Virus record (IMG/VR): IMGVR_UViG_3300032665_000134
Span: 1 to 31,300 of that record
Source of the DNA: a virus
DNA: 31,300 bases
Strand: one strand, 5' to 3'
The position numbers were made by a program, and so were the translations under genes. Positions 7,537 through 31,200 of the stretch are shown in pieces (within the stretch, counting starts at the first letter, position 1; every line of letters starts with the position of its first letter). The notes under the pieces are model-generated. The model was given only the letters and a program-made list of their open reading frames with translations, had not been told where the DNA came from and made no database searches.

Positions 7537-7695
7537 ATGGATACTATTACAATTAAACTTGAATTGACTGTTGATGAAGTAAATGGAGTATTAAATAGTC
7601 TTGGACAAATGCCATATGCACAAGTAACACTATTAGTAGATAAAATTAGACAACAAGCAATTGCACAAGTCCCACAAGATGCACCATCCGAATAA
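7537..7695 (+). CDS. Small conserved-type phage protein (52 aa)
   Basis: This short ORF begins immediately after the stop of the previous gene (TAA then ATG) and ends 24 bases before a hairpin terminator, so it closes the transcription unit. The product is MDTITIKLELTVDEVNGVLN followed by a helical segment with Leu/Val spacing (ALINE-type heptads absent; VTLLVDKIRQQAIAQV present). A pattern of a beta strand plus two short helices with VNxVLNxLGxxP resembles small proteins of unknown function found in the structural regions of T4-like cyanophages. Role unknown. The tight coupling and complete ORF with stop argue that it is real. Confidence 0.65.
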   Translation: MDTITIKLELTVDEVNGVLNSLGQMPYAQVTLLVDKIRQQAIAQVPQDAPSE

Positions 7696-7719
7696 TATAT
7701 TTTTTTAATAAGTAGCAAG

Positions 7720-7757
7720 AACCTCTCAACTAAATAGATGAGAGGTTTTTTTATTTT
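7720..7757 (+). terminator. Rho-independent terminator
   Basis: A 9-bp perfect stem (AACCTCTCA at 7720-7728 pairing with TGAGAGGTT at 7739-7747) with a 10-base loop is followed by a T-rich tract from 7746 (seven T, then ATTTT). It lies just after the 52-residue ORF and before the gene at 7770, the place expected for the end of a transcription unit. The loop contains CTAAATA, which resembles a T4-type late promoter (separate entry). Confidence 0.85.
7730..7736 (+). promoter_or_regulatory. Late-type promoter motif inside terminator loop
   Basis: CTAAATA, flanked as ACTAAATAG, differs little from the T4 late promoter consensus TATAAATA and matches the variant reported for T4-like cyanophages as I recall. 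If used, transcription would start roughly at 7741-7744, inside the right arm of the stem, so the new transcript would lack the left arm and escape the terminator. The next gene starts at 7770 with AGGG close upstream, leaving a leader of about 27 bases. Confidence 0.5.
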
Positions 7758-7769
7758 ATAGGGTTTAAA

Positions 7770-8126
7770 ATGGCGGGTTATCAAGATCTTTTTCTAAATC
7801 AAGGCGAGACTTTTACTACACAGATGAATCTGAATGATAGTAATGGTGCTCCATATAACCTTACTGATTTTATAGTATTATCTTCTGCAAAAAAATCATA
7901 CTATACCAATACTATCAGTTTAATGTTTAATGCATCTATTTATGATGCCAATAACGGGGTAATTCAATTATCTGCAAACTCTTCTGTCACATCAAATGTG
8001 AGTGCTGGTAAATATGTATATGATGTTATTGTAAGGGAAAATAATTCTGGAACTATAACAAGAGTACTAGAAGGACAATTAATAGTTAGTCCTGGTGTCA
8101 CTGGTATAACTACTTCTTATTACTAA
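7770..8126 (+). CDS. BppU-like beta-sandwich tail protein (118 aa)
   Basis: First gene after the terminator/promoter element; AGGG about eight bases before the ATG is the likely ribosome binding site. The sequence (FLNQGETFTTQMNLNDSNG, then GAPYNLTDFIVLSSAKKSY, then SAGKYVYDVIVREN) has the strand pattern of small immunoglobulin-like domains at the N-terminus of baseplate upper proteins (BppU/DUF2479 type): a Gly-Ala-Pro turn, an aspartate-rich linker, GKYVYDV near the end and a final strand (VLEGQLIVSPGV). No signal peptide. In that family the domain anchors receptor-binding proteins to the baseplate. Assignment is by eye, so the fold is likely but the partner is inferred. It is followed after one base by another small structural gene. 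Confidence 0.6.
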   Translation: MAGYQDLFLNQGETFTTQMNLNDSNGAPYNLTDFIVLSSAKKSYYTNTISLMFNASIYDANNGVIQLSANSSVTSNVSAGKYVYDVIVRENNSGTITRVLEGQLIVSPGVTGITTSYY

Positions 8127-14909: not shown

Positions 14910-17900
14910 ATGGCAGGTATAAAACTTTCACAATTACATAGACTAACATCATTAGATCCAGCATCTAATACCACTCTATTGTTAGCATCCGATGAGAGTT
15001 ACCCTTATTCATCTGTAACTTTTGGGTTGGACGCACTTTTCAATGCTCTAAACACATCATTAACCGCAGATGTATCACAGGCATTTAATAGAGCAAATGA
15101 TGCTATCATATTAGCACAGAACGCATATGATAATTCCAACACATATCTAGGTAAGATTGATTCTGCTAACACCTTCTTACAGGCAAATGATAGTCTGACA
15201 CTTTCCAGAGCAATTCAATACACAAATTCTGTTGTATCTTCTAATGTTTCATATGTTTCTGGGGTAGATATTGCACAGAACACCAACATATCTAATACAC
15301 AAGCTTGGTTGAGTTCCAACGTTGCTTACATTGCTGGCGTAGATGCTACCCAAAATACTAATATCAGCAATTTAAATACTTGGTTAAATTCTAATAACCA
15401 ATATAACACTGGTGTAAATGCTAGTCAGAATACTAATATTACTAACTTACAAAGTAATTTAAGTTCCAACGTATCATATATTGCTGGTGTAGATTCCACT
15501 CAAAATACTAATATTAGTAATCTTAATACATGGTTAAATTCTAACGTTGCTTACATTGCTGGTGTAGATTTAAGTCAGAATACTAACATAAACAACTTGA
15601 ATGCATGGTTAAATTCTAATGTTGCTTATATTGCTGGTGTAGATGCTACTCAGAATACCAATATCAGTAATCTACAAAATGCCTTAAATTCTAATGTATC
15701 GTATAATGATGGTGTTAATGTTTCCCAGAATACTAGCATCAGCAATTTAAATACTTGGTTAAATTCTAATGTATCATATGTTGCTGGTGTTGATTACACA
15801 CAGAATACTAATATATCTAACTTAGGTAATTGGTTAAATTCTAATGTATCATTTATTGCTGCTGTAGATGCTACTCAAAACTCATGGATTAGTTCTAATG
15901 TTGCATATTTTACGGGTGTTGATTTAAGTCAGAACACTAGTATTAGTAACTTACAAAGTGGTTTAAGTGCTAATGTTGTTTATATTGCTGGTGTAGATGC
16001 TCAACAAAACACATGGATTAGTTCTAATGTTGCATATTTTGTTGGTGTTGATAACAGTCAAAACACTAATCTACAAACAGCAAATACTTTCTTACAAGCA
16101 AATGATTTATTAACACTATCATCTGCTAAATCATACACAGACACATCAATATCTGGATTAAACAATTCTATATTAACATATGTTGGTGGTGTAGATGCTC
16201 AACAAAACACATGGATTAGTTCTAATGTTGCATATTTTGTTGGTGTTGATGCTACTCAGAATACTAATATAACAAATTTAACAACTTGGTTAAATGCTAA
16301 TGTTGTTTATACACAAAATATAAATGATAGTCAGAATACAAATATTAGTAATTTAAATACATGGTTAAGTTCCAATGTATCATATATTGCTGGTGTTGAT
16401 TTAAGTCAGAATACCAATATCAGTAATTTAAATACTTGGTTAAATTCTAACGTTTCTTATATTGCTGGTGTGGATTTAAGTCAGAATACTAATATTACTA
16501 ACTTACAAAGTAATTTAAGTTCTAACGTTTCTTATATTGCTGGTGTGGATTTAAGTCAGAATACTAATATTACTAACTTACAAAGTAATTTAAGTTCTAA
16601 TGTTGCTTACATTGCTGGTGTGGATGCTACACAGAATACCAATATCAGTAATTTAAATACATGGTTAAGTTCTAATGTTGCTTATATTGCTGGTGTAGAT
16701 TTAAGTCAGAATACTAATATCAGTAATTTAAATACTTGGTTAAATTCCAATAACCAATATAATACTGGTGTAAATGCTAGTCAGAATACAAGTATATCAA
16801 ATTTACAAAGTGGTTTAAGCGCCAATTTACTCTACATCAAAGGGGTAGATGATAGTCAAAACAACAGTATAACTAATACTCAATCGTGGTTAACTTCTAA
16901 TGTAGCATATTTACAATCCATAGAAAATTCACAGAATACCTATATTTCATCCGTATTCAATACTGCCAACGTTGGAAATACTTTTGTCAATTCTGGTGGA
17001 ACAGTTTTTGGCAGCGTCACTATATCCAATGATGCTTTGATTAAAGGAAACCTATCAGTATTAGGAACAACCACCACAACATATTCGTCATCTATTCAAG
17101 TAGGTGATTCATTATTATTACTTGCAAACAATAATACACTATCAGATTCTGTTGATATTGGATTTGTTGGTACATATAACGTTAGTGGTAATGCATACAC
17201 AGGACTTTTCCGTGATCCAATATTAAAAGAATACATCTTCTTCAAAAACTATACACCTAAAGTTCAGTCAAACACACTCATCAATATTGCTGATCCATCT
17301 TTTACATATTCAAATGTATATTCTGCATATTTCAAAGGAAATGTCATAGCTTCTAATGTTGTAGTTAATGGAACTGATATAATCAATTTCACAACATCTG
17401 TATTCAATACTCAAAACACTAATATAAGTAACCTCAATAGTTGGTTAAATTCTAATATTGCTTATATACAGAGTATTAATAATGCTCAAAACACAAACTT
17501 ACAGTCTGCTAACACCTTCTTACAAGCAAATGACTTATCAACATTAAATCAGGCAAATTATTATACTAATATAACAGTTGCTTCTAATTCTAGTTCTATA
17601 TTAGCATATGTTGGTGGGGTGGATGCTCAACAAAATACATGGATCAGTAGTAATGTTGCTTACATTGCTGGTGTTGATGCTACACAGAATACATGGATCA
17701 GTAGTAATGTTGCTTACATTGCTGGTGTTGATGCAACTCAAAATACTAATATCAGTAATTTAAATACTTGGATTAGTTCTAATGTATCATATATTGCTGG
17801 TGTTGATGCTACTCAAAATACCAATATCAGTAATTTAAATACATGGTTAAATTCTAATAACCAATATAACACTGGTGTAAACGCAAGTCAAAACACCAAT

Positions 17901-20228
17901 ATAACCACTACTCAATCATGGTTAAGTTCTAATGTTGCTTATATTGCTGGTGTAGATTTAAGTCAGAATACTAATATAACCACTACTCAATCATGGTTAA
18001 GTTCTAACGTATCATATATTGCTGGTGTAGATGCAAGTCAGAATACCAATATTGGTAATCTTAATACATGGTTAAATTCTAACGTTGCTTACATTGCTGC
18101 TGTAGATTTAAGTCAGAATACTAATATCAGTAATTTAAATACTTGGTTAAATTCTAACGTATCATATATTGCTGGTGTAGATTTAAGTCAAAACACTAAT
18201 ATAACCAATACACAATCTTGGTTATCTGCAAATATTTCCTATATTGCTGGTGTAGATTTTACACAGAACACTAATATTAGTAATTTAAATACTTGGTTAA
18301 ATTCCAACGTTGCTTATATTGCTGGTGTAGATGCTACTCAGAATACAAGTATCAATAACATTATTTCTTGGATTGGTGCTAACAATTCATATTTTCAAGG
18401 TATAGAGAACTCACAGAATACTAGTATCACCAACTTGCAGAGTGGTTTAAGTGCTAATGTTGCTTATATTGCTGGTGTAGATGTTACACAGAATACAAGT
18501 ATCACTAATTTGCAGAACGCATTAAGTGCTAACTTACTTTATATCCAAGGGGTAGACGTTTCTCAGAACTCTAGCATATCAGGACTGACTATACAGATTA
18601 GTTCTAACGTTGCTTATACTCAAGGGGTTGATGCTCAACAGAATACTTGGATCAGTGCTAATAATAGTTATTTCCAAGGTGTATTAAATGGACAAAATAC
18701 CAGTATTGGTAATCTTAATACATGGGTAAGTTCTAACGTTGCTTATACTCAAGGGGTTGATGCTCAACAGAATACTTGGATTAGTTCTAATGTAGCATAC
18801 TTCCAGGGTATTGAGAATACTCAAAATACTAATATTACAACAGCAACCAATTTAGCACAGGGTGGATATAATAAAGCAAACCTGTCTATCAGTATACTTG
18901 GATGGCAACCAAATGCTGTGATATTTGCCAACTCTGGTGGTTATTTGGCAAATGATGCTTCACACATAGCATTCGTTACATCAAATAACACTTTAGTTGT
19001 TTCAAATATTTCTGTTCCGACAATATACACAACAGTGGGTGGTATTGTATTCCCAGATGGAACCACACAAACAACATCAACATATATTGCACCTGTTGAT
19101 TTAACTGCTAGAGCAATTGCCCAATCAGCATTTATTCAGGCAAATACTGCATCAAACAATACAGTATATACTTTTGGTGTAGATGCAAGTCAGAATACTA
19201 GAATATCAACACTAGAAGCAAATACCATTTATACTTTTGGTGTAGATGCACAACAAAATACTAATATTACTGGTGTAGGTACATTTGCTCAAGCAGCATA
19301 TAATACTGCAAATACTGATGTAACAAGTATTAATACTACAGCAGGAACATATGGGAGTACAACAGTTGTTCCAGTTATTACTTTACTTGCAAATGGTAGA
19401 GTTTCATCAATAACAAATACTGCAATATCAACATCTGCTGGTAATTTAACTGGTACTATTCCTAATACAGTATTAGGTAATTCATCAATTTATGTTGGTA
19501 CTACAGCAGTTGCTTTAAATAGATCATCAGCACCTCAAACATTAACTGGTGTGAGTATTGATGGTAATGCTGGTACTGTAACAAACGGTATATACACCAC
19601 CAATTACAACTCGTACTCACCAACACTAACAGGTGGCGGTGCTTCTGGTTCTTGGAGTATTAGTGTAACTGGTTCTGCTGGTTCTGTTGCAGCTTCTGGT
19701 ATAACAGGAACGATTCCTACTGCAACATTAGGTTCTGGTACCGCAAATACAACAACATATTTAAGGGGTGATAACACTTGGCAGGTTGTTTCTGCATCAG
19801 GTGGTGGTGCTACAATAACAAATGACAATTCAACCAATACCAATTATTACCTTGGTATGGCAGGTATTACTTCTGGTTCTTGGACTACTGCATATGTTTC
19901 ATCAAATGAATTGTATTTCAACCCAAGCACAGGAACACTTAATGCAACCATATTTAACTCATTATCAGATATATCATTAAAGGATAATATTACATCATTA
20001 AATAATTGTACTGACATTATAAATATGGTAAATCCTGTAGGATACACATGGAAGAAATCTGGTAAGAAATCATATGGTGTAATTGCTAATGAACTTGAAA
20101 AGATACTTCCAGAATTGGTTTCAGAAAATGATGGAATTAAATCCGTAGAATATAACTCATTAATAGCATTCTTAATTGGTGCAGTACAAGAGTTATCTGA
20201 TAGAATAGAGATATTGGAGAATAAGTAA
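14910..20228 (+). CDS. Giant repeat tail fibre with S74 chaperone (1772 aa)
   Basis: AGGA lies five bases before the ATG. The N-terminus (GIKLSQLHRLTSLDP, then TLLLASDESYPYSS) appears to be the attachment region. Residues about 110-680 and 895-1305 consist of a 25-residue repeat (SNVAYIAGVDATQNTNISNL plus NTWLN) with 18-residue variants lacking seven residues. Spacing of V, I, V, Q, I, L, L fits a trimeric coiled coil of two heptads plus an 11-residue unit. Between the arrays, residues about 728-790 hold the module also found in the 8486 fibre (VGDSLLLLANNN, VDIGFVG, GLFRDPILKEYIFFKN). The C-terminus has Ser1686-Asp1687 (SLSDISLKDNI) and YGVIANELEKILPELV, a standard S74 domain. It is the longest gene in the window and a strong candidate for the long tail fibre. 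Confidence 0.85.
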   Translation: MAGIKLSQLHRLTSLDPASNTTLLLASDESYPYSSVTFGLDALFNALNTSLTADVSQAFNRANDAIILAQNAYDNSNTYLGKIDSANTFLQANDSLTLSRAIQYTNSVVSSNVSYVSGVDIAQNTNISNTQAWLSSNVAYIAGVDATQNTNISNLNTWLNSNNQYNTGVNASQNTNITNLQSNLSSNVSYIAGVDSTQNTNISNLNTWLNSNVAYIAGVDLSQNTNINNLNAWLNSNVAYIAGVDATQNTNISNLQNALNSNVSYNDGVNVSQNTSISNLNTWLNSNVSYVAGVDYTQNTNISNLGNWLNSNVSFIAAVDATQNSWISSNVAYFTGVDLSQNTSISNLQSGLSANVVYIAGVDAQQNTWISSNVAYFVGVDNSQNTNLQTANTFLQANDLLTLSSAKSYTDTSISGLNNSILTYVGGVDAQQNTWISSNVAYFVGVDATQNTNITNLTTWLNANVVYTQNINDSQNTNISNLNTWLSSNVSYIAGVDLSQNTNISNLNTWLNSNVSYIAGVDLSQNTNITNLQSNLSSNVSYIAGVDLSQNTNITNLQSNLSSNVAYIAGVDATQNTNISNLNTWLSSNVAYIAGVDLSQNTNISNLNTWLNSNNQYNTGVNASQNTSISNLQSGLSANLLYIKGVDDSQNNSITNTQSWLTSNVAYLQSIENSQNTYISSVFNTANVGNTFVNSGGTVFGSVTISNDALIKGNLSVLGTTTTTYSSSIQVGDSLLLLANNNTLSDSVDIGFVGTYNVSGNAYTGLFRDPILKEYIFFKNYTPKVQSNTLINIADPSFTYSNVYSAYFKGNVIASNVVVNGTDIINFTTSVFNTQNTNISNLNSWLNSNIAYIQSINNAQNTNLQSANTFLQANDLSTLNQANYYTNITVASNSSSILAYVGGVDAQQNTWISSNVAYIAGVDATQNTWISSNVAYIAGVDATQNTNISNLNTWISSNVSYIAGVDATQNTNISNLNTWLNSNNQYNTGVNASQNTNITTTQSWLSSNVAYIAGVDLSQNTNITTTQSWLSSNVSYIAGVDASQNTNIGNLNTWLNSNVAYIAAVDLSQNTNISNLNTWLNSNVSYIAGVDLSQNTNITNTQSWLSANISYIAGVDFTQNTNISNLNTWLNSNVAYIAGVDATQNTSINNIISWIGANNSYFQGIENSQNTSITNLQSGLSANVAYIAGVDVTQNTSITNLQNALSANLLYIQGVDVSQNSSISGLTIQISSNVAYTQGVDAQQNTWISANNSYFQGVLNGQNTSIGNLNTWVSSNVAYTQGVDAQQNTWISSNVAYFQGIENTQNTNITTATNLAQGGYNKANLSISILGWQPNAVIFANSGGYLANDASHIAFVTSNNTLVVSNISVPTIYTTVGGIVFPDGTTQTTSTYIAPVDLTARAIAQSAFIQANTASNNTVYTFGVDASQNTRISTLEANTIYTFGVDAQQNTNITGVGTFAQAAYNTANTDVTSINTTAGTYGSTTVVPVITLLANGRVSSITNTAISTSAGNLTGTIPNTVLGNSSIYVGTTAVALNRSSAPQTLTGVSIDGNAGTVTNGIYTTNYNSYSPTLTGGGASGSWSISVTGSAGSVAASGITGTIPTATLGSGTANTTTYLRGDNTWQVVSASGGGATITNDNSTNTNYYLGMAGITSGSWTTAYVSSNELYFNPSTGTLNATIFNSLSDISLKDNITSLNNCTDIINMVNPVGYTWKKSGKKSYGVIANELEKILPELVSENDGIKSVEYNSLIAFLIGAVQELSDRIEILENK
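15239..16945 (+). repeat. In-frame 75/54-base tandem repeat array 1
   Basis: Imperfect tandem units encode the 25-residue repeat (SNVxYIAGVDxxQNTxISNL plus five residues), with some 18-residue units. Within it 16445-16525 equals 16520-16600 exactly (81 bases at offset 75), a recent unit duplication. Confidence 0.85.
17590..18830 (+). repeat. In-frame 75/54-base tandem repeat array 2
   Basis: This is the same unit family as array 1, separated from it by a folded module. Around 17639-17735 a 54-base unit (ATGGATCAGTAGTAATGTTG and on) is repeated almost exactly at offset 54, giving two consecutive 18-residue repeats. Confidence 0.85.
19245..19339 (+). repeat. 95-base exact repeat, copy 2 (partner 12772-12866)
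   Basis: This tract is identical to the one in the 904-residue fibre gene. It encodes the end of a coiled-coil repeat and the start of the shared beta-rich domain just before the C-terminal tip. Confidence 0.9.
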
Positions 20229-21412
20229 TGTCAGTTGGTAATCCAAGTAACTTTCAAAAAGACGATCCAATATTTGGAAGTATAGATTTAGATGATGAGT
20301 ATATTACTGATCAATGGTTAGTTGATCAGTTTGTTGGAAATACTTTGTTTGCATGTGGATATAATGCAAATGGTCAATTAGGTAATGGAACAATAGTATA
20401 TTATTCTTCACCAATACAAGTGGGATCATTAACTAATTGGAAACAAGTTTCTTGTGGATATAAACATACAGCAGCAATAAAAACTGATGGTACTCTATGG
20501 ACATGTGGATATAATATAACTGGAACATTAGGTAATGGAACAATAGTATATTATTCTTCACCAATACAAGTGGGATCATTAACTAATTGGAAACAAGTGT
20601 CATGTGGAGGCACCCATACAGCAGCAATAAAAACTGATGGTACTTTGTGGACATGGGGATATAATAATTGGGGAAATTTAGGTAATGGAACAGTAATAAG
20701 TTATTCTTCACCAATTCAAGTAGGATCATTAACTAATTGGAAACAAGTTGCTTGTGGCGGCCGCCATATGGCATCAATAAAAACTGATGGTACTTTGTGG
20801 ACATGTGGATATGGTCTTTTTGGTCAATTAGGTAATCCGCCGCAGACACTTCCTAGAAATTATTCTTCACCAGTACAAGTAGGAACATTCACTAATTGGA
20901 AACAAGTTGCTGGTGGAGCAATTCATACAGCAGCAATAAAAACTGATGGTACTTTATGGTCATGGGGGAATGGTACTAATGGTCAATTAGGTATTGGGGC
21001 AACACCAACATCAAGAAGCAGTCCTACACAAGTAGGAACATTAACTAATTGGAAACAAATTGCTTGTGGAAGTTTGTTTACAGCAGCAATAAAAACTGAT
21101 GGTACTTTATGGTCATGGGGAGACTGCGCTGGAGGTCAATTAGGTAATGGAACAAATATCACATATTCTTCACCAATACAAGTAGGATCATTAACTAATT
21201 GGAAACAAGTTGCTGGTGGAACAATTCATACAGCAGCAATAAAAACTGATGGTACTTTATGGTCATGGGGAGGTAATGGTAATGGTCAATTAGGTAATGG
21301 AACAACAGTAAACTATTATTCACCAATTCAAGTAGGATTATTAACTAATTGGAAATATGTTAATGGTAATTATAATACTACAGCAGCAATACCTTTCGCA
21401 GATATAACATAA
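20228..21412 (+). CDS. RCC1-type seven-bladed beta-propeller protein A (394 aa)
   Basis: The start overlaps the giant fibre stop by one base (TAATG), with GGAG upstream at 20215-20218. A 38-residue N-terminal segment (PIFGSIDLDDEYITDQWLVD) precedes seven blades of about 50 residues: TLWTCGYN, QLGNG, YSSPIQVGSLTNWKQV, then HTAAIKTDG. The pattern is that of RCC1 repeats (W-G-x-N-x-x-G-Q-L-G-N-G), and seven units close one propeller. No enzyme motif is present. RCC1-like proteins next to phage fibre genes are probably receptor-binding or adhesin tips, which is inference. Loop codons vary strongly and some are unusually GC-rich (GGCGGCCGC at blade 3; CCGCCGCAG insertion in blade 4). Confidence 0.85.
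   Translation: MSVGNPSNFQKDDPIFGSIDLDDEYITDQWLVDQFVGNTLFACGYNANGQLGNGTIVYYSSPIQVGSLTNWKQVSCGYKHTAAIKTDGTLWTCGYNITGTLGNGTIVYYSSPIQVGSLTNWKQVSCGGTHTAAIKTDGTLWTWGYNNWGNLGNGTVISYSSPIQVGSLTNWKQVACGGRHMASIKTDGTLWTCGYGLFGQLGNPPQTLPRNYSSPVQVGTFTNWKQVAGGAIHTAAIKTDGTLWSWGNGTNGQLGIGATPTSRSSPTQVGTLTNWKQIACGSLFTAAIKTDGTLWSWGDCAGGQLGNGTNITYSSPIQVGSLTNWKQVAGGTIHTAAIKTDGTLWSWGGNGNGQLGNGTTVNYYSPIQVGLLTNWKYVNGNYNTTAAIPFADIT
20377..20598 (+). repeat. Adjacent RCC1 blades with 72-base exact identity
   Basis: Bases 20377-20448 and 20527-20598 are identical at an offset of exactly 150 bases (one blade). This marks blades 1 and 2 as recent copies of each other. Confidence 0.9.
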
Positions 21413-21430
21413 TTATTAGGGTTTATAGAA

Positions 21431-22111
21431 ATGAATTATATATTAGTAAAAAATCAAGAACAAGTATTTTTAGGTCCATTTGATTGGAAACCTAGATATA
21501 TTCAATCTGAAATTGATCAATTAATTGAAGATGGTGAATTAAGTACATTTTATCAAGTTCCACCAGTAGAACAAGGTTATATTGATATTGGAGATGGGTT
21601 TGAAATAATTCCTATTACTGATTCATCTATACCTGCTATTGATCCTCTTTTTGAAGATCCTATTGGTCCTTTCTATACCTATGCAAATAATAATGCAACA
21701 GTTACTTATTCTAAACAAGATAGACCATTACATTTTATTAAATCTGATTTGATACAACTTGCTGGTTCAATAAGATATAACAATGAGGTTGCAGGAACAA
21801 CTGCAAATACTTCTGTTGGTTCTATTTCAGTTTCTACAGATAGAGATAGTAGATTACAATATTCCAACCTATTATCATCAATGGGGTCTAATACAATCAA
21901 TTTTAAAACTGGTACTGAATTTGTCACATTAACCAGTAATGATATGCAGATTATTGTAAATACTATTCATAATCATGTTCAAGAACAGTTTGATTGGGAA
22001 TTACAAACAATTAATGAATTAAATACAATAGATAATATTGATGATTTTAAATCAATATTATTAAATAAATTAACTCCACCAACAGAGAATACTGGATTAC
22101 CAAATGCCTAG
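21431..22111 (+). CDS. DUF4376-like tail-associated protein (226 aa)
   Basis: AGGG at about 21417-21420 precedes the ATG. The protein starts with a domain of fibre-assembly type (NYILVKNQEQVFLGPFDWKP). Residues about 135-205 (STDRDSRLQYSNLLSSMG, FKTGTEFVTLTSNDMQIIVN, HNHVQEQFDWE) fit the DUF4376 pattern often found at the C-terminus of phage tail proteins: D-R-D-S-R, a short strand, then a helix with H-x-x-x-x-F. The last bases overlap the next RCC1 gene by eight. It sits between two propeller genes, so a role as chaperone or as attachment protein for them is a reasonable guess. Confidence 0.65.
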   Translation: MNYILVKNQEQVFLGPFDWKPRYIQSEIDQLIEDGELSTFYQVPPVEQGYIDIGDGFEIIPITDSSIPAIDPLFEDPIGPFYTYANNNATVTYSKQDRPLHFIKSDLIQLAGSIRYNNEVAGTTANTSVGSISVSTDRDSRLQYSNLLSSMGSNTINFKTGTEFVTLTSNDMQIIVNTIHNHVQEQFDWELQTINELNTIDNIDDFKSILLNKLTPPTENTGLPNA

Positions 22112-23336
22112 TAATTTTGATCAGTATCATCCATATACGGGATTTCAAGTAACTGACCCAAATACCAGTAATACTCAAGATTTAGGTCAAAGGTATACTA
22201 CCAAATCTTATTTACTTGATGTTTATCCTAATATTGCAAGTACTTTAGGTGCAAGAACAAGTCCTGGATTATGGACATGGGGACAAAATAATAATGGTCA
22301 ATTAGGTAATGGAACAACAACAGGTTATTCTTCTCCTATACAAATAGGAACATTAACCAATTGGAAACAGGTTTCTATGAATTCAAGCGGGGCAGGAATT
22401 AAAACTGATGGAACTGTATGGACATGGGGTTATAATTTTTTGAGTCAGCTAGGTATTGGAGTATATAATATAAATTATTCTTCACCAATTCAAGTAGGAT
22501 CATTAACCACATGGAAACAAGTTTTTTGTGGATATAATAACATAGCATCATTAAAAACAGATGGAACTCTGTGGATGTTTGGTGGAGATAATAACTATGG
22601 CGAAATGGGTAATGGATCATCTGTTGTTATGTATTCTTCACCAATACAAGTGGGGGCATTAACGAATTGGAAACAAGTTTCTTGGGGATCTCAACATATA
22701 GTAACAGTAAAAACTGATGGAACTTTATGGACATGGGGAATTAATAATCAAGGTCAATTAGGACTTGGAACGGTAACAACATTTGGTTATTTTTCACCAC
22801 TACAAGTAGGAACATTAACTAATTGGAAACAAGTTTCAAGTTTAAACAATTTTTCAGCAGCAATTAAGACAGATGGTACTTTATGGGCATGGGGAAACAA
22901 TCAATATGGTCAATTAGGTAATGGGGCAAATGGTGTATATTATTCATCCCCAATACAAGTGGGATCATTAACTAATTGGAAACTGGTTTCCGTTGGAGGA
23001 AGACATTTATCTGCTATTAAAACTGATGGTACATTATGGACTTGTGGATATAATGGTTGTGGTCAATTGGGTAATGGAACAGGAATATATTATTCATCCC
23101 CAATACAAGTGGGGGCATTAACTAATTGGAAACAAGTTGCTTGTGGATACCAACATGTTGTGGCAGTAAAAACTGATGGAACTTTATGGACATGGGGATA
23201 TAATTTTAATGGACAATTAGGTAATGGAACAACAACAACATATTCTTCACCAATACAAGTGGGATCATTAACTAATTGGAAACAAATTTCTGCTGGCAAA
23301 AATAATACAGCAGCAATTTCAGACGGATATATTTAA
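22104..23336 (+). CDS. RCC1-type seven-bladed beta-propeller protein B (410 aa)
   Basis: The ATG overlaps the end of the DUF4376-like gene (8 bases). A 55-residue N-terminal segment (YHPYTGFQVTDPNTSN, then DLGQRYTTKSYLLDVYP) resembles the linker of the other two propeller proteins. Seven RCC1-type blades follow (LWTWGQNNNGQLGNG, YSSPIQIGTLTNWKQV and so on). Blades 2-4 are the most divergent (GGDNNYGEMGNGSSVVMYSS; INNQGQLGLG), and the others are close to those of protein A. Family members in cells are structural or exchange factors. Here no catalytic residues can be named, and a receptor-binding role is inferred from the position. Confidence 0.85.
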   Translation: MPSNFDQYHPYTGFQVTDPNTSNTQDLGQRYTTKSYLLDVYPNIASTLGARTSPGLWTWGQNNNGQLGNGTTTGYSSPIQIGTLTNWKQVSMNSSGAGIKTDGTVWTWGYNFLSQLGIGVYNINYSSPIQVGSLTTWKQVFCGYNNIASLKTDGTLWMFGGDNNYGEMGNGSSVVMYSSPIQVGALTNWKQVSWGSQHIVTVKTDGTLWTWGINNQGQLGLGTVTTFGYFSPLQVGTLTNWKQVSSLNNFSAAIKTDGTLWAWGNNQYGQLGNGANGVYYSSPIQVGSLTNWKLVSVGGRHLSAIKTDGTLWTCGYNGCGQLGNGTGIYYSSPIQVGALTNWKQVACGYQHVVAVKTDGTLWTWGYNFNGQLGNGTTTTYSSPIQVGSLTNWKQISAGKNNTAAISDGYI

Positions 23337-23340
23337 AATT

Positions 23341-23847
23341 ATGAAAAACATTATTATTTGTGACAACTTTTATAGTGATATTGAACCACTTTCTAATATC
23401 ATTTCTACTATGGAATTTGAAAGTGATATCTATGGAGAAGAAATAAAAGACTTCTCATATATCCCAGAACAATTACATAGTTTGTTTAATGGAATTCTAA
23501 ATGAACCAGTAGAAATACAACCAAATACTGGTGTATTCAGAAAACCAAATTCAGCAGTTCTATTTGAGAATTTTTATCAACATGCATTATGGAAATGTAT
23601 TGTGGCACTTGAAGATACTGTATTAAAAATACATGAACAAGAAGGTATTAAAACATTCTTTAATGTAGATAATGTTGAAGACTTTGTATTAAACAATTCT
23701 TTTGATTCTTCAAAATGGAATACTGTAAATTCAATAAATATCAAGAAAAATGATTTTGTTTTCATTAGACCTTGGTTTTGGCATAGTCTAGAAGAAAATA
23801 AATTAGTACAAGTATTTCTATTGAACCAAGAAATTAAGGAAGAATAA
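23341..23847 (+). CDS. Possible cupin/2OG-oxygenase-like protein (168 aa)
   Basis: It begins four bases after the RCC1 B stop and overlaps RCC1 C by one base. The N-terminus (KNIIICDNFYSDIEPLSNII) and the C-terminal part (IKKNDFVFIRPWFWHSLEEN, then LVQVFLLN) resemble the ends of small double-stranded beta-helix oxygenases found in marine phages; FVFIRPWFWHS corresponds to the strand that carries the second metal His. The first His may be in FYQHALWKCIVALED, but the usual H-x-D/E pair is not evident. It may thus be an inactive or very divergent member. A hydroxylase acting on neighbouring fibre proteins is possible but unsupported beyond position. Confidence 0.4.
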   Translation: MKNIIICDNFYSDIEPLSNIISTMEFESDIYGEEIKDFSYIPEQLHSLFNGILNEPVEIQPNTGVFRKPNSAVLFENFYQHALWKCIVALEDTVLKIHEQEGIKTFFNVDNVEDFVLNNSFDSSKWNTVNSINIKKNDFVFIRPWFWHSLEENKLVQVFLLNQEIKEE

Positions 23848-25400
23848 TGGCACAGTTTCCATCGGGTTATACATTTTCTAGAACTGCTCAAAATTTTGTA
23901 ATTTGGAGTGAACAATATATTACTCCTTATTGGGATGTTACATCATATCCTATGACTATTGTTCCTAATGCAACTACTGCGCCAGATGGTACGAATACTG
24001 CGTACTCTGTAACAGGCACCACCACAGGTGTCGGTGGTTTATTTGCACAAACTGTTTCAGCATCTACTGGTATAGGTTCTGGTATACAAACATCTTCAAT
24101 ATATGCCAAAGCAAACACCACAACACAGTTTACATTAAATTGTTACTATGGTGGAGATACCGAAGTTAATGTCACATTCACATTAACAGGAGCAGGATCT
24201 GCTACTGCTGGTGGAACGATTGTTAGTATCGGTAATGGGTGGTATAGATGTTCAATACAGACACCAGCAATGATAACTGCTAATGCATCATTTGCATATC
24301 GTGTATGGCCACAATTAAGAGGTAATCTAGCAGCAGTTGGTTGTTACTTCTGGGGTGCTGCTGTAAATAATGGTTCTACTTTATTACCATACATCGGAAC
24401 TCTAGATAAACAATTAAATCAAAATTTTGGATCAGTTCCTGTTGATATGGCAGATATGTTTGTCCGTAAGGAATTATTTTTGAATGCTGGATTGTGGACA
24501 TGTGGATATAATAATAATGGAGGATTAGGTAATGGAACAACAGTAAACTATTCTTCACCAATACAAGTTGGTTCATTAACTAATTGGAAACAAGTTGCTG
24601 GTGGATTTGGACATACAGCATCAATTAAAACTGATGGTACTCTATGGACATGTGGATCTAATCAATATGGTCAATTGGGTAATGGAACAACATCAAATTA
24701 TTCTTCACCAATTCAAATAGGATCATTAACTAATTGGAAACAAGTTTCTGCTGTATATTATCATACAGCATCAATAAAAACTGATGGTACACTATGGACA
24801 TGGGGATGGAGTCTTTATGGTCAATTAGGTAATGGAACAATAGTATATTATTCTTCACCAATTCAAGTAGGAACATTAACTAATTGGAAACAAGTTGCAG
24901 GTGGTGGTTATCATACAACATCAATTAAAACAGATGGTACTTTATGGACATGTGGATATAATGGTTCTGGTCAATTAGGTAATGGAACAATAGTATATTA
25001 TTCTTCACCAATACAAGTAGGATCATTAACTAACTGGAAACAAGTTGCTGGTGGATTAGTACATACAGCAGCAATAAAAACTGATGGTACTTTATGGACA
25101 TGTGGATCTAATCAATATGGTCAATTAGGTAATGGAACAACATTAAATTATTCTTCACCAATTCAAGTAGGAACATTAACTAATTGGAAACAAGTTGCAG
25201 GTGGTGGTTATCATACAACATCAATAAAAACTGATGGTACTTTATGGACATTTGGATACAACAATTATGGTCTATTAGGTAACGGAACAACATTAAATTA
25301 TTCTTCACCAATTCAAGTAGGAACATTAACTAATTGGAAACAAGTTGCTGGTGGACTTTATCATACAGCATCAATTTCATCACCAGATTTACCTGCATAA
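23847..25400 (+). CDS. CBM-like domain fused to six-bladed RCC1 protein C (517 aa)
   Basis: The start overlaps the previous stop by one base, with AGGAAG upstream. Residues about 10-190 match the carbohydrate-binding-like beta-sandwich common in phage tail proteins: NFVIWSEQYITPYWDV, NATTAPDGTNTAYSV, SIGNGWYRCSIQTPA and GCYFWGAAVNNGSTLLPYIG are its hallmarks. A linker (VPVDMADMFVRKELFLNAG) leads to six RCC1-type blades, not seven as in proteins A and B. Blades 3 and 5 share 79 identical bases at offset 300. The sandwich plus propeller suggests two glycan-contacting domains in one tip protein, which is inference. Ends SISSPDLPA without an S74 domain. Confidence 0.82.
   Translation: MAQFPSGYTFSRTAQNFVIWSEQYITPYWDVTSYPMTIVPNATTAPDGTNTAYSVTGTTTGVGGLFAQTVSASTGIGSGIQTSSIYAKANTTTQFTLNCYYGGDTEVNVTFTLTGAGSATAGGTIVSIGNGWYRCSIQTPAMITANASFAYRVWPQLRGNLAAVGCYFWGAAVNNGSTLLPYIGTLDKQLNQNFGSVPVDMADMFVRKELFLNAGLWTCGYNNNGGLGNGTTVNYSSPIQVGSLTNWKQVAGGFGHTASIKTDGTLWTCGSNQYGQLGNGTTSNYSSPIQIGSLTNWKQVSAVYYHTASIKTDGTLWTWGWSLYGQLGNGTIVYYSSPIQVGTLTNWKQVAGGGYHTTSIKTDGTLWTCGYNGSGQLGNGTIVYYSSPIQVGSLTNWKQVAGGLVHTAAIKTDGTLWTCGSNQYGQLGNGTTLNYSSPIQVGTLTNWKQVAGGGYHTTSIKTDGTLWTFGYNNYGLLGNGTTLNYSSPIQVGTLTNWKQVAGGLYHTASISSPDLPA
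24847..25225 (+). repeat. RCC1 blades 3 and 5 share 79 identical bases
   Basis: 24847-24925 equals 25147-25225 base for base at offset 300 (two blades). Blade 6 also shares 65 bases with blade 5 (25134-25198 and 25284-25348). These tracts are long enough for homologous recombination. Confidence 0.88.
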
Positions 25401-30379: not shown

Positions 30380-30387
30380 TAAACTGA

Positions 30388-30395
30388 CATAAATA
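30388..30395 (+). promoter_or_regulatory. Likely T4-type late promoter before gp13 gene
   Basis: CATAAATA (seven of eight to TATAAATA) lies in the only sizeable gap (41 bases) between the cassette and the gp13 homologue. A start near 30402 would leave a leader of about 19 bases. It marks the return to late virion genes. Confidence 0.5.
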
Positions 30396-30420
30396 GTTGA
30401 TAACTCAATAGAGATTAACT

Positions 30421-31200
30421 ATGGCAGATATAACTTCAAGAGTAGATTTTAAAAATTATTGTCTTCGTAGACTTGGTTTTCCAGTAATAGAAATTAACGT
30501 AGATGATGATCAAATAGAAGACAGAATTACCGATGCTATTCAATATTTTGTTGATAGACATGCTGATGGTACACAGAAAATCTATTATGTTCGTTCATTA
30601 ACAGCACAAGATTTGACTAATAGATATTTAGATTTAAGTCCAACTGTTGCTGTAGACGATCATGGTAATCATGTGGATATTGTTGGTGTTACACGTATAT
30701 TTCCTATTATGGATTCACAAGCAACCATCAACATGTTTGACTTGAGATATCAATTACGTTTAAATGAACTCTACGACTTCACCTCTGCCTCATACATCAA
30801 CTATACACTCACACAACAACACTTACGATCACTAGAGATTATGTTCACTGGTGAGGTTCCTATTCGCTTTAATAGACATATGAAAAAACTCTATATTGAT
30901 TGGGCATGGGGTTCTCAAGAAGCACCAGCTGGAACAATTGTTGTTGCTGAATGTTATGCTACTTTGAATCCTGATGCATATCCTTGGGTGTATAATGATA
31001 GATGGTTAAAGGAATATGCCACAGTACTTATTAAAATGGCATGGGGTGCTAACTTAAAGAAGTTCAATAATATTCAACTACCAGGTGGTGTTACGCTCAA
31101 TGGTGATAAAATTTATGATGAAGCAAATCAGGAAAAACTGAGACTTGAAGATGAGATGGAGTCACAACATGGTGGTGTTTTGGAATTTTTCTTAAATTAA
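30421..31200 (+). CDS. 13: Neck protein, gp13 homologue (259 aa)
   Basis: The protein follows the pattern of gp13 of T4-like cyanophages from end to end: DFKNYCLRRLGFPVIEINVD, then DDQIEDRITDAIQYFVDRHA, a central VTRIFPIMD plus NMFDLRYQLRLNELYDF, and the very conserved end LKEYATVLIKMAWGANLKKF, then NIQLPGGVTLNGDKIYDEAN. It is slightly shorter than T4 gp13 (about 309), as in cyanophages. In T4, gp13 and gp14 form the neck that closes the filled head and receives the tail. The usual neighbour gp14 is not seen; a GIY-YIG gene begins three bases after the stop. Confidence 0.88.
   Translation: MADITSRVDFKNYCLRRLGFPVIEINVDDDQIEDRITDAIQYFVDRHADGTQKIYYVRSLTAQDLTNRYLDLSPTVAVDDHGNHVDIVGVTRIFPIMDSQATINMFDLRYQLRLNELYDFTSASYINYTLTQQHLRSLEIMFTGEVPIRFNRHMKKLYIDWAWGSQEAPAGTIVVAECYATLNPDAYPWVYNDRWLKEYATVLIKMAWGANLKKFNNIQLPGGVTLNGDKIYDEANQEKLRLEDEMESQHGGVLEFFLN

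Follow-up and report, generated by a model that had tools for sequence, protein, structure and literature searches.

Can the hairpin that ends one transcription unit of a phage also hold the promoter of the next one? This question is raised by an intergenic hairpin in a 31,300-nt stretch of viral DNA (positions 1 to 31,300 of the IMG/VR record IMGVR_UViG_3300032665_000134; hereafter the window), which is a piece of the late region of a marine T4-like phage. The ORFs of the window include tail-fibre and baseplate-type genes, a tail sheath stabilizer and a gene 13-like connector, and a large ORF occupies the position held by VrlC in HTVC008M. For bases 1-25000, a comparison with 50,697 phage records gave no close match at the DNA level. 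Among the tail-fibre genes, three ORFs at 20228-25400 match PHROGs named regulator of chromosome condensation (RCC1-like repeats). A preliminary description of the locus read the hairpin as a terminator with a late promoter in its loop, reasoned that an RNA started from this promoter could not form the stem, and regarded the whole as a compact punctuation device that would recur in the genome.

A terminator-like hairpin with a late promoter motif in its loop

The hairpin and both flanking ORFs lie on the plus strand. The upstream unit ends with a 52-aa ORF (7537..7695; MDTITIKLELTVDEVNG...), which has no PHROG match and whose stop codon is located 21 nt 5' of the 12-bp stem, while the downstream ORF (7770..8126) encodes a 118-aa L-shaped tail fibre assembly-type protein (phrog_3304/phrog_1084). 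Between them, a left arm (7717..7728; AAGAACCTCTCA) and a right arm (7739..7750; TGAGAGGTTTTT) enclose a loop (7729..7738; ACTAAATAGA) in which CTAAATA, resembling a T4-type (gp55) late promoter, occupies 7730..7736. The proposed hairpin terminator with CTAAATA in its loop at 7720-7757 was confirmed: the stem consists of nine perfect Watson-Crick pairs (7720-7728 with 7739-7747), or of 12 bp when one G-U pair is allowed (7717-7728 with 7739-7750), and a T-rich tract at 7746..7757 marks the region where upstream transcripts would be released. RNA folding of 7700-7757 gave -18.2 kcal/mol (z = -5.4), and none of 200 shuffles was equally stable. With a stable GC-containing stem and a T tract, in an intergenic position 3' of a stop codon, the 7717-7757 hairpin has the sequence features of an intrinsic terminator, and it is the sole perfect-stem terminator found when both strands of the 31.3-kb window were scanned. 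A bidirectional terminator was considered and rejected; the reverse strand folds, but without a comparable T run at this site.

The core of T4 late promoters is placed at -13 to -6 in PMC1524935, and with this spacing the start falls in the right arm; we infer a late start at about 7742 (plus strand), near the earlier estimate of 7743. An RNA beginning at 7742 is predicted to have no stable 5' hairpin (-4.0 kcal/mol, z = +0.9), which bears out the idea that a transcript started in the right arm is unable to form the stem. A Shine-Dalgarno-like AGGG (7760..7763, plus strand) lies outside the hairpin, 6 nt 5' of the ATG. T4-type late promoters are formed by a -10-like element only, and a short core is sufficient without a -35 element according to PMC2988020; the whole promoter can thus fit into a loop of 7-10 nt, which leaves the arms free to change.

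The frequency of the motif is uninformative here. In the window, [CT]TAAATA is not enriched, with 34 matches versus 31.8 expected, and since this is the chance level the motif count was dropped as evidence. Part of the 34 matches lies inside a 1772-aa ORF (14910-20228), in which several TTAAATA matches are spaced by 75 bp or multiples of it, a spacing that points to a 25-residue repeat. Judged from sequence comparison, what is significant is the conserved position of the motif in the loop and not how often the motif occurs.

Conservation upstream of the tail fibre assembly gene

To sample the site independently of the hairpin, 44 loci were picked solely for encoding a relative of the downstream ORF, and these contain 33 distinct upstream regions. 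TAAATA was found within 80 nt of the start in 27 of these regions, where 0.06 would be expected per region. A TAAATA core shortly 5' of a late structural gene is the arrangement of a T4-type late promoter, and the motif is present at a similar distance also in relatives that have no hairpin. A terminator occurs within 130 nt upstream in five of the 33 regions, and its loop contains TAAATA in four of the five. Across the 44 loci and the window, five of 47 perfect-stem terminators have a TAAATA loop, all five at this very site, and a locus found by DNA pattern (L120) provides a sixth case. The hairpin is therefore present at orthologous sites in the window, L002, L003, L004, L007 and L120. The stems of these orthologues vary (CCTCTCA, CCCTCTG, CCTTCTC or CCTCTCTG), with pairing restored each time and TAAATA unchanged. 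Among the 33 distinct terminators of this set, the loop holds TAAATA in four and TATTTA in two; TAAATA is the commonest loop hexamer here as well as in a second protein-chosen set, based on gene 13 (best 80 of 426 stretches).

Other arrangements are seen upstream of related ORFs. Upstream of position 10001 in L009, a terminator with a TTCG loop stands immediately 5' of a doubled late motif (TAAATATAAATA), so that the two elements are adjacent and not nested. L011 and L012 carry two copies of TAACTAAATATTAGA 5' of the ORF, in each of which CTAAATA is framed by a small dyad, and a T run follows. Several loci among L015-L027 have the late motif between short dyads 5' of the ORF (e.g. AATCA-taaata-TGATT) without a T tract; these are perhaps remnants or chance.

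The gene 13 site

The same hairpin design was met in pattern scans before gene 13, which encodes a neck protein (phrog_211). A sample for which the gene 13 protein was the only criterion (best 80 of 426 stretches) yielded 79 loci with 45 distinct upstream regions in 798 kb. Within this sample, TAAATA lies within 80 nt upstream of gene 13 in 42 of the 45 regions. A terminator is found just 5' of the gene in 11 regions, and all 11 contain TAAATA in the loop, so that not one terminator at these sites is without it. The motif stands without a terminator at 31 of the 45 sites in the same best 80 of 426 stretches, which indicates that the fusion is not required for expression. Among the 62 distinct terminators in these gene-13 loci (again from the best 80 of 426 stretches), TAAATA leads the loop hexamers with 11 occurrences, and its reverse complement TATTTA has none. 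The gene 13-like ORF of the window itself (30421) has CATAAATAG about 31 nt 5' of its start (30385-30425) without a hairpin, unlike gene 13 of the cyanophages.

In an alignment of 21 distinct gene-13 hairpins, 94.9% of the cells are paired and TAAATA is invariant; the hairpins were selected by at least 9 of 13 complementary arm letters, which in itself favours pairing. What supports the structure, at the level of sequence, is the letter changes on both arms, and the covariation score was 0.307 compared with 0.125 for shuffled alignments (0/500) and at most 0.086 for slid structures. Because these hairpins stem from related cyanophages, the counts do not represent independent events, and the covariation is strong evidence for a maintained structure and less so for many independent origins.

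Distribution in cultured phages and whole genomes

Cultured phages carry the element too. It is present in six of six isolate gene-13 upstream regions checked (S-PM2, Syn1, S-RIM44, Sf-FR1, S-RIM32 and S-H9-2), which are the top matches of 1178 records with a gene 13 relative and do not constitute a survey; the S-PM2 hairpin is at about 66785. In S-CAM1 (at about 164554) and S-MbCM7 the element stands 5' of genes other than gene 13, and at the S-CAM1-type gene S-RIM44 and Sf-CH11 have TAAATA without a hairpin. The Methylophilales phage Melnitz-1 has one TAAATA-loop hairpin at 75066; in the corresponding locus (L306:15366) the hairpin is long and imperfect, has TATAAAT in its loop and immediately precedes a 346-aa ORF.

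Scans of whole records returned 0-2 TAAATA-loop terminator sites per genome. Relative to all terminators, the counts are 1/40 in S-PM2, 2/46 in S-CAM1, 1/32 in Syn9 (weak), two sites (three rows) of 37 in S-MbCM7, 1/41 in T4 (weak) and 1/23 in Melnitz-1 (139.4 of 141.6 kb scanned), with zero in P-SSM2 (0/38), RB49 (0/62), Aeh1 (0/83), HTVC008M (0/14) and G011 (0/22). G003, a 143-kb record and the nearest large relative of the window, has 1/17, at the same site as the window. The per-genome excess over loop shuffling reached p<=0.003 in S-MbCM7, a value that counts one hairpin twice, p<=0.017 in S-CAM1 and p<=0.037 in G003, and was not significant in S-PM2, Syn9, T4 and Melnitz-1. The expectation of further such hairpins in the genome thus formally failed in G003. 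Since other phages carry the hairpin at different genes, with one or two per genome, it is a site-specific device, and the idea of a general, genome-wide punctuation device was rejected, TAAATA-loop terminators being usually 0-2 per genome.

Pattern scans and the form with a ribosome site

Scans of the collection by pattern found TAAATA with CCTC arms in at least 117 stretches, the TATTTA control in at least 118 and CCCT arms in at least 120. As these are lower bounds in motif and control alike, raw contig counts are uninformative. The position relative to genes does separate the two: of 98 distinct TAAATA cases among the matches listed, 54 have an ATG no more than 9 nt after the hairpin, versus 17 of 92 in the TATTTA control (Fisher p = 2.3e-7) and 19 of 91 with CCCT arms. 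Relatives do not count as independent cases here, and both the TAAATA and the TATTTA sets include bidirectional hairpins. By sequence, the predicted start falls within the right arm in 189 of 189 elements among the matches listed, because the loops are short. The AAGCCCTT hairpins, which lie 5' of a small basic protein, and the CCCTAGCTTTAAATAAGTTAGGG hairpins are probably unrelated; they are still included in the 180- and 189-element counts.

Of 138 distinct elements followed by an ORF (among the matches listed), 57 have a Shine-Dalgarno-like sequence within or beside the right arm that does not precede the predicted start, and the start codon follows 3-12 nt further, most often at 7 (24 cases). 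One example is ACCTCCTCTAAATACTAGGGGAGGTTTTTTCGTATG in S-CAM1, for which folding gave -14.7 kcal/mol for the full hairpin and -1.3 for the piece starting in the right arm. In such elements one stem can, as far as the sequence indicates, both end read-through RNA and hide the ribosome site. The Shine-Dalgarno sequence lies outside the stem in the window (as described above), in its orthologues and in the gene-13 class.

Borders of exchanged modules

The hairpins often coincide with sharp changes in homology. In the CCTCCTC class, 10 of 15 pairs with similar sequence in the 300 nt upstream have unrelated sequence in the 300 nt downstream, as do nine of 10 upstream-similar pairs in the CCCTTCCA class, and the reverse polarity (downstream similar, upstream unrelated) was seen in no pair of either class. 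L192 and L119, for instance, are identical at 300 of 300 positions upstream and share the hairpin except for one base, and their similarity ends at the start codon. Homology resumes past the swapped gene in four of five comparable pairs, the exception being L111/L104. A tRNA-Ser(TGA) gene ends about 4-7 nt 5' of the hairpin in 10 of 16 loci scanned (L119 5496-5587, L192 6374-6465, L111 997-1089 and seven other loci).

Loci were also picked by the small gene upstream and not by the hairpin. Of 33 MINLHE-type loci found in this way, one that was too short and one partial match (L696) were left out, and the element is present in 28 of the other 31. It is present in eight of 10 MSTKVV-type loci (12 found; one too short and one partial match, L663, left out). 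The element is followed by two unrelated clusters of downstream proteins in the MINLHE type and by four in the MSTKVV type. One cargo family swapped in behind the hairpin (L631:5387-6607 in S-CAM1, and relatives) belongs to phrog_8438, which has no assigned function. Its structural model is weak (mean pLDDT 61.4), and the restriction endonuclease HinP1I provides the first and second PDB matches (best E 0.034, probability 0.90); from this model, the cargo is possibly a nuclease.

In the class of the window the polarity is reversed: all 15 pairs have similar DNA downstream (scores 51-208), and only one pair, the window and L002, has similar DNA upstream. Among the upstream proteins, a clear relationship is seen in L004/L120 as well, and a weaker one in L003/L004 and L003/L120. 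Both in the relatives and in the window's own class, the element thus sits at the border of exchanged modules, as PeSLs do. An element that would close one unit and open the next unaided could be expected at such boundaries between exchanged neighbours.

Proposed mechanism and alternatives

The hairpin, its conservation, the covariation of its stem around a constant loop motif and its place at an exchange boundary are direct observations, and we consider it quite probable that the element is an intrinsic terminator whose loop holds a complete T4-type late promoter, with start, termination and timing deduced from sequence. A polymerase arriving from upstream would transcribe both arms, upon which the hairpin would form and the transcript would end in the U tract. 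Late in infection, polymerase with the phage sigma factor gp55 would recognize TAAATA and start about 6 nt further on, in the right arm. As the late RNA would lack the left arm, it would neither terminate nor hide the ribosome site. In many relatives, a right arm with a Shine-Dalgarno sequence directly 5' of the start codon may add translational shut-off of read-through RNA. A gp55 homologue was found in seven of seven records searched, including the relative G003; the window is too small a piece to reveal one. The earlier proposal that one element serves as terminator of one unit and late promoter of the next is supported by these comparisons, in that the loop is kept, the stems compensate and the sampling by protein alone agrees.

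It is very improbable that an ordinary terminator merely contains TAAATA by chance in an A+T-rich genome. Such an explanation would suit the unremarkable frequency of [CT]TAAATA in the window (34 vs 31.8) and the single hairpin of this kind in the window and in G003. It does not suit a loop motif that is constant at orthologous sites while the stems change, that is present in 11 of 11 gene-13 terminators (best 80 of 426 stretches), that is the top loop hexamer in two protein-chosen sets and that recurs at a similar distance in relatives without the hairpin. Nor do we favour the view that the element persists mainly as a patch for homologous recombination in the manner of PeSLs, with promoter and terminator as baggage, which we regard as quite unlikely. 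The sharp loss of homology 3' of the hairpin (10/15 CCTCCTC-class and 9/10 CCCTTCCA-class pairs) and its return after the swapped gene in 4/5 comparable pairs are what such a patch would produce; however, the stems differ between classes and covary within gene 13, where both flanks are conserved, and a pure homology patch would not preserve pairing and loop motif through sequence change.

Another reading is a late promoter combined with a translational hairpin, in which the stem would silence RNA that reads through, with little or no termination. This principle has been established with T4 e and I-TevI (PMC3014915, PMC2988022), and the Shine-Dalgarno sequence within or beside the right arm, with the start codon 3-12 nt on, in 57/138 elements (among the matches listed) agrees with it. 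The T tract directly 3' of the stem is nevertheless kept, and the Shine-Dalgarno sequence is located outside the stem in the window, its orthologues and the gene-13 class. We judge this account unlikely, although the terminator and translational roles are not mutually exclusive.

Relation to known systems and significance

PeSL (promoter-early stem-loop) cassettes of T4-like phages, reportedly described by Arbiol in 2010 and Comeau in 2014, are said to carry sigma-70-like early promoters. By sequence, the element resembles them in uniting a stem-loop terminator and a promoter within a short stretch where exchanged modules meet, and PMC4503421 likewise describes PeSLs as composites of early promoter and stem-loop at exchange borders in T4-like genomes. 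It differs in that its promoter belongs to the late gp55 type and is placed within the loop of the hairpin, and in that the right arm may double as the Shine-Dalgarno sequence. No early sigma-70-like promoter, as in PeSLs, is present: the loop has TAAATA only, and the would-be -35 region varies with the stem. The element is thus not a PeSL, since it lacks an early-type promoter.

In T4 gene e and I-TevI, a late promoter lies inside a translational hairpin that the late RNA escapes, as stated in PMC3014915 and PMC2988022. As in the hairpins of T4 e, I-TevI, segB and Aeh1 mobE, the late RNA predicted here would lack a 5' arm that is present in the longer RNA. Those hairpins block translation, whereas the stem here is a terminator with a T tract, and the elements bearing a Shine-Dalgarno sequence combine both. 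The late motif of Aeh1 is CTAAATA according to PMC1524935. With T4-type late promoters (TATAAATA; NATAAATA in S-PM2) the element shares the core, the expected start distance and the lack of a -35 element, but the motif is set within an inverted repeat with a T tract. With ordinary T4-like intrinsic terminators (e.g. those with TTCG loops) it shares a GC-containing stem and a T tract between genes, but the loop holds a promoter motif and not a stabilising tetraloop. In the literature searched, no terminator loop was described as containing a late promoter; such an account may exist in PeSL, RB49 or Syn9 transcriptome papers. The element would work like both PeSLs and the T4 e/I-TevI hairpins, its closest known kinds.

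Going further, and tentatively, since we would put it at somewhat below even odds, marine T4-like phages may possess a distinct class of late cassette in which one hairpin combines terminator, gp55 promoter and, often, a lock on the ribosome site. Such cassettes would insulate units such as tRNA-Ser genes from late genes, and unrelated late genes could be swapped in behind them with late control ready. As only about 10-25 bp separate the release point from the promoter behind it, a polymerase freshly released by the terminator could be captured again at this promoter and start anew with gp55, so that late re-initiation would be coupled to termination; the recycling of bacterial RNA polymerase, as described in PMC6978380, offers an analogue.

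The nested arrangement would explain how two units of different timing can abut in less than 40 bp, and why a promoter without a -35 element suits such nesting. It also gives a sequence signature for late promoters of marine T4-like phages, a group in which late promoter prediction failed for pelagimyophages in one study (PMC7029224). The hairpins point to late counterparts of PeSL borders, so that new late cargo genes may be found by looking behind them, and the proposed working is testable in cultured cyanophages such as S-PM2 and S-CAM1.
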